A stretch of DNA of 64,000 bases from Phycisphaerae bacterium RAS2. Its GTDB lineage: Bacteria; Planctomycetota; Phycisphaerae; UBA1845; UTPLA1. The translations under genes and the position numbers were made by a program. The stretch is taken from the NCBI GenBank assembly GCA_007753915.1, contig CP036352.1:992001-1056000 (forward strand). The letters are read 5' to 3'. The notes under the pieces are model-generated. The model did not search any database, was not told where the DNA came from, and worked only from the letters and a program-made list of their open reading frames with translations. Positions within the stretch are counted from its first letter, which is position 1, and each line of letters starts with the position of its first letter. Shown one piece after another: positions 37,679 through 64,000 of this stretch.

Positions 37679-37763
37679 GAGCCGCGACCGTCAGGGAGCG
37701 GTCAGGGCTCAAATTGCGGGCCATCACATTCACAGGCTGACCGCTCCCTGACGGTCGCGGCTC
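37679..37763. repeat. 27-bp perfect inverted repeat pair
   Basis: The arms at 37679-37705 and 37737-37763 are exact reverse complements around a 31-base loop. The right arm contains CGCTCCCTGACGGTCGCGGC; a variant with one change in its first 22 bases recurs at 37967-37988 and another with two changes lies inside gatB at 61706-61727. Confidence 0.95.
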
Positions 37764-37966: not shown

Positions 37967-38001
37967 CGCTCCCTGACGGTTGCGGCTCTGACAGACGCGC
38001 G
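37967..38001 (+). repeat. Diverged copy of the TCCCTGACGGT repeat
   Basis: 35 bases matching 37742-37776 with two differences. It shows that the family is dispersed in the intergenic region. Confidence 0.85.
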
Positions 38002-61381: not shown

Positions 61382-62986
61382 TCAGTCGTTGTTCTTCAGC
61401 CCCTTGATTTTTCTTTCGATCAGATCTCCCGTCAGTTTCGGGTCGGCCTTGCCCCCGGAGAGTTTCATGACTTGGCCGCGGAGGAAGCCGGGGGCGGCCT
61501 TGGCTTTTCGCTCGTTGTCGCCGAGGGCGTCGGCGACGGCCTGGGGATTCTTCGCGAAGGCTTCGTCGACCCATGCTTGCGTGGCGGATTCGTCGCGGAC
61601 CTGCAAGAGGCCAAGGTCGCGCGCGAGGTCGAGGACGGATGATCCGGTGTCAAGTATTTGGCCCTCACCCCGGCCCTCTCCCTTGGAGGGAGAGGGGGTG
61701 GAACTCGCTCCCTCGCGGTCGCGGCTCGGATCGACAGCGCGGCGCGGATGGGCGGCGAGTTTTTCGGCGATGTTTGCGGCGGCGGAAGCACTGATGGCGC
61801 CCTCCTGCACGGCGCGGGCCAGGTCGGCGACGTGCTTCGGAGGCACGCCGAGATCGGCAATGGTGCATCCGGCGGCTGACGCGAGGTTGTTCCAGATACC
61901 GACAAATTGCTTGATAACGGTCCGCGCGTCCACGCCGGCCGTCACGACGTTGTCGAACAGTTCGGCCGTTTTGCGGTCGGCAAGCAGCACTTCGCAGTCT
62001 TTCTCTGTCACGCCGAGGTCGCGGATCAAACGCGCCTGGCGCGCCAGCGGCAGTTCGCCGATTTCCCCGCGCACCTGCTCCACCCACGCTGCGTCGGGTG
62101 TGACCGGCACGAGATCGGGATCGGGGAAGTAGCGATAGTCGTGCGACTCCTCCTTGCCGCGCTGAAACTCCGTCACCTCGCGCTCGTCGTCCCAGCCGAA
62201 GTTCATCTTGCCGAGCTTGTCGAGCGTGTAATCGTGGTCGGCCTCCCACGCAGCTGTCTGCCGCTTGATCTCGTATTCCACGGCCAGCCGCACCGAGCGG
62301 AAGCTGTTGAGATTCTTGATTTCGCTAATCGGCGTGCGGTATTCGCGGCCGTCGTGCGTGATGGCGAGGTTCACGTTCGGCTCAAAACGCATCTGTCCCT
62401 TCTGCATGTTGGCTTCGCTGACGCCGAGAAACTTGACGAGTCGCTGCAGCTCGACGGCGAAGGCGTAGCACTCGTCGGCGGATGCGAGGTCGGGCTGGGT
62501 GACGATTTCGAGCAGCGGCGTGCCGGCGCGATTGAGATCGACGCGTGAGTGGTCGACGCCTTCGTGCAGGTTCTTGCCGGCGTCTTCTTCGAGATGCGCG
62601 CGGATGATGCCGATGCGGCGCATGGGAGCTTTGCCGCCGCCGTCGAGGCCATCAGCGGGCGTTGGAACTTCAAAGACGCCGTTAAACGAGAGCGGCAGGT
62701 CGTACTGGCTGATCTGATAATTCTTCGGCAAGTCGGGGTAAAAGTAGCTCTTGCGATCCCACTTCGTGAACGGCGCGATCTTGCACCCCAGTGCCAGCGC
62801 CGCGCGCACGGCCAACTCGTACGCGCGGCGGTTCATCACCGGCAGCGAGCCGGGCAGGCCGAGGCAGACCGGGCACACGCGCGAGTTCGGCTCGGCGGCG
62901 AACTCCAGCGGGCAGGCGCAAAACAGCTTCGTGCGCGTCGCAAGCTGGACGTGGATCTCCATGCCGATGATGGGGCGGATTTGCAT
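61382..62986 (-). CDS. gatB: Aspartyl/glutamyl-tRNA amidotransferase subunit B, with a repeat-derived insertion
   Basis: 534 residues. IIGMEIHVQLATRTKLFCACP opening, CPVCLGLPGSLPVMNRRA, RKSYFYPDLPKNYQISQYDLPL, GIIRAHLEEDAGKNLHE, DLNRAGTPLLEIVT, and DYRYFPDPDLVPV. The C-terminal YqeY-like region is present (GFLRGQVMKLSGGKADPKL). Converts Glu-tRNA(Gln) and Asp-tRNA(Asn) by transamidation with GatA/GatC, which are not in the window. Between AEKLAAH and TGSSVLDLARDLGL lie ~33 extra residues (RRAVDPSRDREGASSTPSPS then KGEGRGEGQI) encoded by palindromic and dispersed-repeat DNA. It lies in a cinA / zinc-ribbon / gatB operon. Confidence 0.95.
   Translation of the reverse strand: MQIRPIIGMEIHVQLATRTKLFCACPLEFAAEPNSRVCPVCLGLPGSLPVMNRRAYELAVRAALALGCKIAPFTKWDRKSYFYPDLPKNYQISQYDLPLSFNGVFEVPTPADGLDGGGKAPMRRIGIIRAHLEEDAGKNLHEGVDHSRVDLNRAGTPLLEIVTQPDLASADECYAFAVELQRLVKFLGVSEANMQKGQMRFEPNVNLAITHDGREYRTPISEIKNLNSFRSVRLAVEYEIKRQTAAWEADHDYTLDKLGKMNFGWDDEREVTEFQRGKEESHDYRYFPDPDLVPVTPDAAWVEQVRGEIGELPLARQARLIRDLGVTEKDCEVLLADRKTAELFDNVVTAGVDARTVIKQFVGIWNNLASAAGCTIADLGVPPKHVADLARAVQEGAISASAAANIAEKLAAHPRRAVDPSRDREGASSTPSPSKGEGRGEGQILDTGSSVLDLARDLGLLQVRDESATQAWVDEAFAKNPQAVADALGDNERKAKAAPGFLRGQVMKLSGGKADPKLTGDLIERKIKGLKNND
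61662..61727. repeat. Palindromic repeat elements in frame inside gatB
   Basis: CCCTCTCCC (61674-61682) and GGGAGAGGG (61688-61696) form a hairpin with CACCCC/GGGGTG flanks. Directly after it, 61706-61727 matches the intergenic repeat arm at 37742-37763 at 20 of 22 bases. Both code in frame for the extra GatB residues. Confidence 0.85.
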
Positions 62987-63302: not shown

Positions 63303-64000
63303 TTATCTCGCCAACGTCAAACGCAGCAGATTGATTGCCGCCTTGGCGGTGCGGTCGCGGATTTCGTCCCGGGTGAACGACTCGCCGATGCGGAGTTCTT
63401 TAACGGTGACACGGTAATCGGAACCAGGCGTTCGCTCATGTTCGAACGGCCGCGCGGGCTGAAGCCCGCGGTTCGTTGTGGCCCCGTGGCTCGTTGGTTC
63501 CTGTCGCTCTGCCATCGCGATGTAAACCAGTCCGACGGGTTTGTCGGGCGTGCCGCCGGTGGGGCCGGCGATGCCGGTGGCGGAGAGGGCGAAGTCGGTG
63601 CCGGCGAGCCGGCGGCAGTTGGCGGCCATGGCCTCGGCGACTTCGGCGCTGACGGCCCCGTGCGCGGCGAGGAGGTCGGCGGGGATTTCGAGCAGCCGCT
63701 GCTTGGCGTCATTCGAGTAGGTCACGAACGATTGAATGAAGTAGGCGCTGCTGCCGGGCACGTCGGTGAGGCGCTTGGCGATGAGGCCGCCGGTGCAGGA
63801 CTCGGCCGTGGCGATGGTTTTTCTCTGCGCGATGAGCAGGCGGGCGACGGCGTCGGAGAGGGTATCGTCGCCTTCGCCGAAGACGGCAATGCCGAGTCGG
63901 CGGCGGATGTCGTCGGCGTCGGCGTCGAGCAGGGCGCGGGCGTCGGCTTCGGAGTCGGCGCGGGCATTGATGCGGATGGAGATGATCATGTCGGCGGCGC
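63303..64000 (-). CDS. cinA: CinA C-terminal (nicotinamide-nucleotide amidohydrolase) domain protein, 5' end outside window
   Basis: The frame is open to the right edge, so the N-terminal MoaB/Mog-like part of CinA probably lies beyond; 228 codons are seen from the ATG at 63989. INARADSEADARALLDADADDIRRRLG is represented by its first part, the CinA inter-domain region. TIATAESCTGGLIAKRLTDVPGSS, SFVTYSNDAKQRLL, EVAEAMAANCRRLAGTDFALSATGIAGPTGGTPDKPVGLVY and RDRTAKAAINLLRL are in order, the PncC amidase core. Residues after IAMA (ERQEPTSHGATTNRGLQPAR, then PFEHERTPGS) are extra to the family and coded partly by an 18-bp palindrome. It hydrolyses nicotinamide mononucleotide to recycle NAD. Confidence 0.9.
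   Translation of the reverse strand, partial: AADMIISIRINARADSEADARALLDADADDIRRRLGIAVFGEGDDTLSDAVARLLIAQRKTIATAESCTGGLIAKRLTDVPGSSAYFIQSFVTYSNDAKQRLLEIPADLLAAHGAVSAEVAEAMAANCRRLAGTDFALSATGIAGPTGGTPDKPVGLVYIAMAERQEPTSHGATTNRGLQPARPFEHERTPGSDYRVTVKELRIGESFTRDEIRDRTAKAAINLLRLTLAR
63453..63470. repeat. 18-bp palindrome in frame inside cinA
   Basis: CGCGGGCT and AGCCCGCG pair around GA. It encodes part of an extra loop (RGLQPARP) in the CinA amidase domain. Confidence 0.85.

Follow-up and report, generated by a model that had tools for sequence, protein, structure and literature searches.

A palindromic repeat in the gatB gene of a planctomycete and its probable link to transposases lying in frame within aminoacyl-tRNA synthetase genes

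We analysed a window of 64,000 nt from Phycisphaerae bacterium RAS2 (CP036352.1, positions 992,001 to 1,056,000 of the forward strand; the genome is called G000 below), in which the gatB gene carries an in-frame insert (Table 1). The product of this gene, 534 aa long, is a true GatB, matching the NCBIfam GatB model above its cut-off. A gatB match was found in 39 of 41 genomes, G000 included; the alignment comprises 37 of them, without G016 and G024, whose matches were fragmentary. The initial annotation had pointed to about 33 residues that are not expected in GatB, and the alignment confirms them as residues 414-446. It had also described the underlying DNA as a hairpin joined to a sequence resembling an intergenic inverted repeat; we indeed find the hairpin, CCCTCTCCC..GGGAGAGGG, and a stretch (61706-61727) identical at 20 of 22 bases to the intergenic arm at 37742-37763. 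The origin of the insert from palindromic repeats therefore stands, with the correction that two different repeat families, which we call A and B, lie side by side in gatB.

Table 1 Host gene, insert and related intergenic repeats, in window coordinates.
Feature	Position	Strand	Description and basis
gatB	61382..62986	minus	534 codons, host gene of the insert; ORF, NCBIfam TIGR00133 and others
Extra GatB residues 414-446	61649..61747	minus	alignment of 37 genomes; gap against 3al0_B and 3h0l_B
Repeat A copy in frame (class 3 REP)	61706..61729	minus	CCGA foot, codes for SRDREGA; repeat comparison and genome-wide pattern search
Repeat B, second palindrome	61662..61696	none	core hairpin 61674-61696, codes for SPSKGEGRGEG; 7 genome sites
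Intergenic repeat A copy, left arm of inverted pair	37679..37700	plus	repeat search
Intergenic repeat A copy, right arm of inverted pair	37742..37763	minus	repeat search
Additional repeat A copy	37967..37988	minus	21/22 bases as in the arm; repeat search

The solved chains 3al0_B and 3h0l_B have two to three residues at the insert site, which lies between the body and the tail domain. The insert is present in G000 and in G001, the sole genome of the same genus in this search, and absent from the other 35 aligned genomes, so that it is not common to all relatives. Several of these 35 show unrelated extra residues at the same position, the longest in G019, G027, G031, and G035. Since both species share the insert, it most likely predates their split. 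Its DNA has evolved somewhat faster than its flanks, with an identity between G000 and G001 of 82/105, compared to 1068/1236 for gatB before the insert and 219/261 after it.

Both repeats occur elsewhere in the genome above chance. Over the 4.32 Mb genome, repeat A (AGCCGCGACCGYSAGGGAGCG, up to two mismatches) matches 76 times and the reversed pattern once, a count that refutes a chance likeness between the gatB insert and the repeats, and repeat B (CCCTCTCCC-N3..12-GGGAGAGGG) has 7 sites, with every site counted on both strands, compared to none for the control. Copies of repeat A form a weak imperfect hairpin, and ten pairs of them face each other at a spacing of 62-116 bp. The foot of the repeat is CNGA in 72 of the 76 copies (CCGA in 65, CAGA in 6, CGGA in 1). 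G001 has 23 copies, mostly imperfect and one perfect. Across the phylum, repeat A (up to one mismatch) is found in 20 of 392 genomes, including G000, and reaches a high copy number in a few scattered ones.

Repeat A is depleted in genes, as only 4 of its 76 copies lie within genes, all in the SRDREGA frame, compared to 1251 of 3000 random positions on the same stretches. These counts come from a strict test, which misses the copy in cinA because of its repetitive flank; a looser test also picked up shadow frames. In G000, repeat A is read in the SRDREGA frame inside cinA, a CoA-activase gene, a pepD-like dipeptidase gene, and a peroxidase-related gene, and also at the end of an agmatinase gene, which supports the earlier view that a mostly intergenic repeat has entered an essential gene with the frame kept. 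Some of the in-gene copies are also polymorphic between the two species of the genus, one of the points on which that view could be checked. The pepD-like gene of G001 is without repeat A, and its CoA-activase gene is without the copy seen in G000 and has a degenerate copy further on. The cinA gene of G001 has hairpin B alone, whereas that of G000 has 69 more bases including repeat A and 27 more bases within the hairpin, both multiples of three.

In G000, cinA and gatB lie about 2.5 kb apart and both carry repeat A followed by repeat B, which might indicate that the combined insert spread between these neighbours through recombination or copying rather than transposition. Nevertheless, in G001 gatB has both repeats and cinA has B without A, so that A either reached cinA separately or was lost there. 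Repeat A is also found without B in other genes, and the 76 scattered copies would have no explanation, which makes such a spread rather improbable. CinA (63303-63998, minus strand) also contains another group of extra residues, RGLQPARPFEHERT, whose codons surround a GCGGGCTGAAGCCCGC palindrome at 63453; this stretch is longer in the sister species. RGLKPAA stretches are also seen in the alanyl-tRNA synthetase (AlaRS) loop of G468 and G475, and those of CinA and AlaRS apparently represent a third in-frame palindromic repeat.

In-gene copies of repeat A are not confined to this genus. In G408, from the same class, 18 of 97 copies lie in genes, 12 of them in the SRDREGA frame (binomial p 3e-6 against one in six, the copies partly sharing genes and hence not all being independent). 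Among the hosts are MnmA, RimO, homoserine dehydrogenase, carbamoyl-phosphate synthase, and a glucosamine-6-phosphate deaminase-like protein with two copies, to which NrdJ is added by a weaker test (the deaminase-like and NrdJ loci are L235 and L238). In G282, repeat A lies in frame within IleRS (L246). No copy was called in genes in samples of eight loci each from G121, G238, and G331. A radical-SAM UPF0004 gene of G408 (L303, G408:C1:1841600-1844700) contains tandem VSRDHQQ units with a repeat A pair at their end, which looks like growth of the repeat through in-frame tandem duplication.

Two perfect copies of repeat A flank, in inverted orientation, a gene for an IS200-like HuH/Y1 transposase (G000:C1:2706306-2706797). 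Residues H87, H89, Y147, and Q152 are invariant in 12 aligned transposases including this one; in an alignment of 36, the first three remain invariant and Q152 is found in at least 90%. The predicted fold (pLDDT 85.6) gives TM-scores near 0.5 to IS200 transposases and to the RAYT-REP complex 4er8. Inverted repeat pairs surround 17 of 30 transposase loci at an identity of 43% or more, compared to 1 of 30 more distant loci and 0 of 60 controls. A transposase match is present in 52 of 114 genomes of the order; G001 has a distant one (33% identity) and no close one. We found no link between repeat B and a transposase. In Legionella waltersii and a proteobacterial assembly (L426, L418), as well as at acidobacterial loci such as L423, the transposase has stand-alone relatives bordered by this repeat with at most a few mismatches; the Legionella and proteobacterial loci indicate that the pair of repeat and transposase crosses phyla.

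The available text of PMC6006769 describes class 3 TnpA(Y1) as occurring principally in planctomycetes, acidobacteria, and proteobacteria, with a Y----Q motif, flanking structures with a CnGA foot, and sometimes a high copy number. The element studied here has the HuH and Y----Q motifs, the CnGA foot on flanking structures, and many copies (76), and it likewise falls mainly in planctomycetes and acidobacteria. Given the CnGA foot and the flanking of a Y----Q HuH/Y1 transposase, we identify repeat A as a class 3 TnpA/REP element, and its association with this gene makes it most likely that the transposase moves the repeat. One difference from the account in the available text of PMC6006769 is that, here, copies lie within genes and the transposase gene lies within another gene.

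In-frame REPs within genes are known from other bacteria; among them, O. terrae (Verrucomicrobia) has the largest number of GTAG REPs according to the part of PMC3733652 available. Like our repeat, these GTAG/CGTC REPs are short in-frame palindromes, often in genes for enzymes of DNA or RNA metabolism; nevertheless, their feet differ, and the available part of that paper describes no transposase gene within the host gene (PMC3733652). The initial annotation had compared the gatB insert to Rickettsia palindromic elements, which are also in-frame insertions coding for an added peptide. However, those have a CGTC end and no dedicated transposase, as far as the accessible text of PMC3733652 goes, while the foot of repeat A is CNGA in 72 of 76 copies, and neither GTAG nor CGTC. 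On account of the CnGA foot and the flanked transposase we reject a Rickettsia-type element; both features instead fit class 3 TnpA. No paper on the peptide SRDREGA was found in our literature search.

A further finding, beyond the initial annotation, concerns relatives, where essential genes contain the transposase gene itself in frame. A complete transposase is embedded in AlaRS in at least 12 genomes of the order (G007, G008, G015, G024, G027, G029, G470, G472, G473, G491, G492, G497), with two transposases within the one AlaRS gene of G029, and with the contig of G024 ending just past the transposase. ValRS is the host in G019, from the same order, and in G408, G412, and G238, from the same class, amounting to 16 genomes with 12 others that are distinct by frame length; IleRS was considered as the host in G408 and rejected in favor of ValRS. 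In G331, from the same phylum, the transposase lies within a methyltransferase-like frame.

Among the best 80 of 267 transposase loci, 37 lie in frames longer than 420 aa. These comprise 12 AlaRS (the same 12 genomes as in the search of the order, with the same frame lengths, and counted once), 12 ValRS, 6 DUF1156-like and 2 Alw26I-type methyltransferase-like frames (eight assignments all below curated cut-offs), one frame following a cytidylyltransferase domain, and four with no assigned host (L373, L406, L407, L438), two of which, L407 and L438, may be open by chance. The frames were read at the fetched loci, with L177 and low-identity matches without a locus, some in frames above 800 aa, left out. 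Very long frames around the transposase had been considered as high-GC artefacts, an idea dropped when the frames were read. Methyltransferase genes (DUF1156 or Alw26I/PglX-like) with an in-frame transposase were seen at L369, L370, L394, L398, L399, L400, L368, L378, and L196, and some of them perhaps belong to anti-phage systems.

The linkers of the embedded transposases are coded by repeats, commonly SRDREGA-like or EPRPSGS before the transposase and PLPYGRGS, PLPHGRGS, or PLPDGRGS after it. Inverted A-like pairs flank the transposase in 12/12 AlaRS, 12/12 ValRS, and 9/13 other long frames, and 15/43 stand-alone genes, compared to 0/80 controls. On solved structures, the insertion point in the AlaRS of L374 corresponds to a three-residue loop (4xem_A 307-311) and the ValRS site of L388 lies between residues 363 and 377 of 1gax. 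The predicted structure of a fusion was weak (mean pLDDT 58.1) and not usable.

Empty sites are found within the same genus, the AlaRS loop having 33 residues in G002 and 26 in G013, compared to 247 in G015. G471 has half a repeat in this loop, the first site of G027 has a repeat pair without a transposase, and G000 and G001 have a loop of 26 residues with no repeat. This comparison covers 19 AlaRS genes, three of which were missed by the motif, with loop lengths measured for part of them. In G460, AlaRS is present as two halves separated by about 500 kb (C1:827745 and C1:321275), and the break falls at the model position occupied by the transposase in relatives, which reflects either a split gene or an assembly error.

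The embedded transposases mostly lack a nearby start codon. An ATG is found within 15 codons upstream in 2 of 22 aminoacyl-tRNA synthetase cases compared to 24 of 36 stand-alone genes, and an ATG, GTG, or TTG in 5 of 22 compared to 29 of 36; two synthetase cases, one other long frame, and seven stand-alone genes were left out of this count, as the motif was not found. The five retained start codons would allow separate translation of the transposase by internal initiation, giving two products from one gene. However, 17 of the 22 cases have none, compared to 7 of the 36 stand-alone genes, and no stop codon lies between the embedded transposase and the remainder of the synthetase, and we consider internal initiation unlikely.

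One could also suspect errors of assembly or binning behind the synthetase-transposase frames, or pseudogenes in decay while an intact copy lies elsewhere in the genome, given that most embedded cases come from metagenome assemblies and that L394, filed under Bacillota, nearly equals L400 from Planctomycetota and may be mis-binned. Against this, the same loops are occupied in many separate assemblies, and the genome of G408 is a single contig, 99% complete. The PF01411 matches listed for the 12 AlaRS genomes are different parts of one gene on one contig in each, with no second AlaRS gene among them, and a search with PF10458 (the ValRS C-domain) shows exactly one ValRS each in G019, G408, G412, and G238, its frame having the same length as the transposase frame. 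In addition, the frames have no stops and both the embedded transposase and its host are under purifying selection; over 12 pairs of embedded transposases, pN is 0.12-0.27 and pS is 0.59-0.80, as estimated with a purpose-written codon model and with synonymous sites near saturation. All of this makes artefacts or decay a very unlikely origin. An ordinary expansion of a GatB loop in this lineage, similar to intergenic repeats by chance or base composition, is hardly credible as the origin of the insert in spite of the variable site and the unrelated extra residues of several relatives, given the 76 copies against one in the control, the 20 of 22 bases shared with the intergenic arm, and the same repeat in other genes where the sister species has none.

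In a tree of 81 transposases, the host labels change 20 times, compared to a mean of 35.2 after shuffling, with no shuffled set out of 200 as low. On the same tree, in which 25 of 78 inner branches are weak, at least 12 changes occurred between the embedded and the stand-alone state. As the host labels are clustered and yet the state changed at least 12 times, the element seems to combine long residence in one gene with several entries into or departures from genes.

Our preferred reading, which we regard as likely, is that the gatB insert consists of a class 3 TnpA/REP copy next to an unrelated palindrome, and that in relatives the whole transposase lies in frame within AlaRS or ValRS and is likely fused to it. 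The single-strand HuH/Y1 transposase would move class 3 REP copies around the genome, and a copy in a gene would persist only if it keeps the reading frame open and adds its peptide to a flexible linker. In gatB, the added peptide would occupy the linker that joins the tail domain to the body. In relatives, the complete transposase, together with the inverted repeats at both ends, sits in frame in AlaRS, ValRS, and some methyltransferase-like genes, and the host enzyme would most likely contain it as an internal domain. A single fused synthetase-transposase protein would thus be produced, with both parts working, and the essential gene would shield the element from loss, since the host would survive only an in-frame loss. 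Whether class 3 REP transposases of planctomycetes are lodgers of essential genes, which use a few permissive loops of the only AlaRS or ValRS gene, lose their start codon, become a shielded internal domain, and seed copies such as that in gatB, is a proposal for which we see about equal chances of being right or wrong.

Inteins with homing endonucleases also place a mobile enzyme in frame within a conserved essential gene. Unlike inteins, the four fusions scanned with Pfam (L374, L388, L369, L371) showed only host domains and Y1_Tnp, with no HINT splicing domain, and the insert seems to remain in the protein. The embedded elements also resemble REPtrons, in which TnpA-REP (RAYT) is, according to the available text of PMC8266576, a domesticated transposase gene bordered by palindromes, as both have a transposase gene between inverted REPs and a related fold (4er8). 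They differ from REPtrons as described there in the class 3 tyrosine motif, in having no GTAG foot, and in lying in frame in aminoacyl-tRNA synthetase genes (PMC8266576). We found no published account of a transposase within an aminoacyl-tRNA synthetase gene among the top-ranked results of our search, which covered few subscription papers and no supplements.

To our knowledge, essential genes are usually thought to be closed to transposons. Here, many planctomycetes appear to carry a transposase gene, lacking any splicing domain, in their sole copy of an aminoacyl-tRNA synthetase gene. Should the fusions be produced, a mobile element can exploit the essentiality of a host gene as protection, and small repeats such as that of gatB illustrate how proteins acquire new segments. 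The findings also point to natural sites in AlaRS, ValRS, and GatB at which between about 30 and more than 200 additional residues are tolerated, and they turn the persistence of REP transposases into a testable question.
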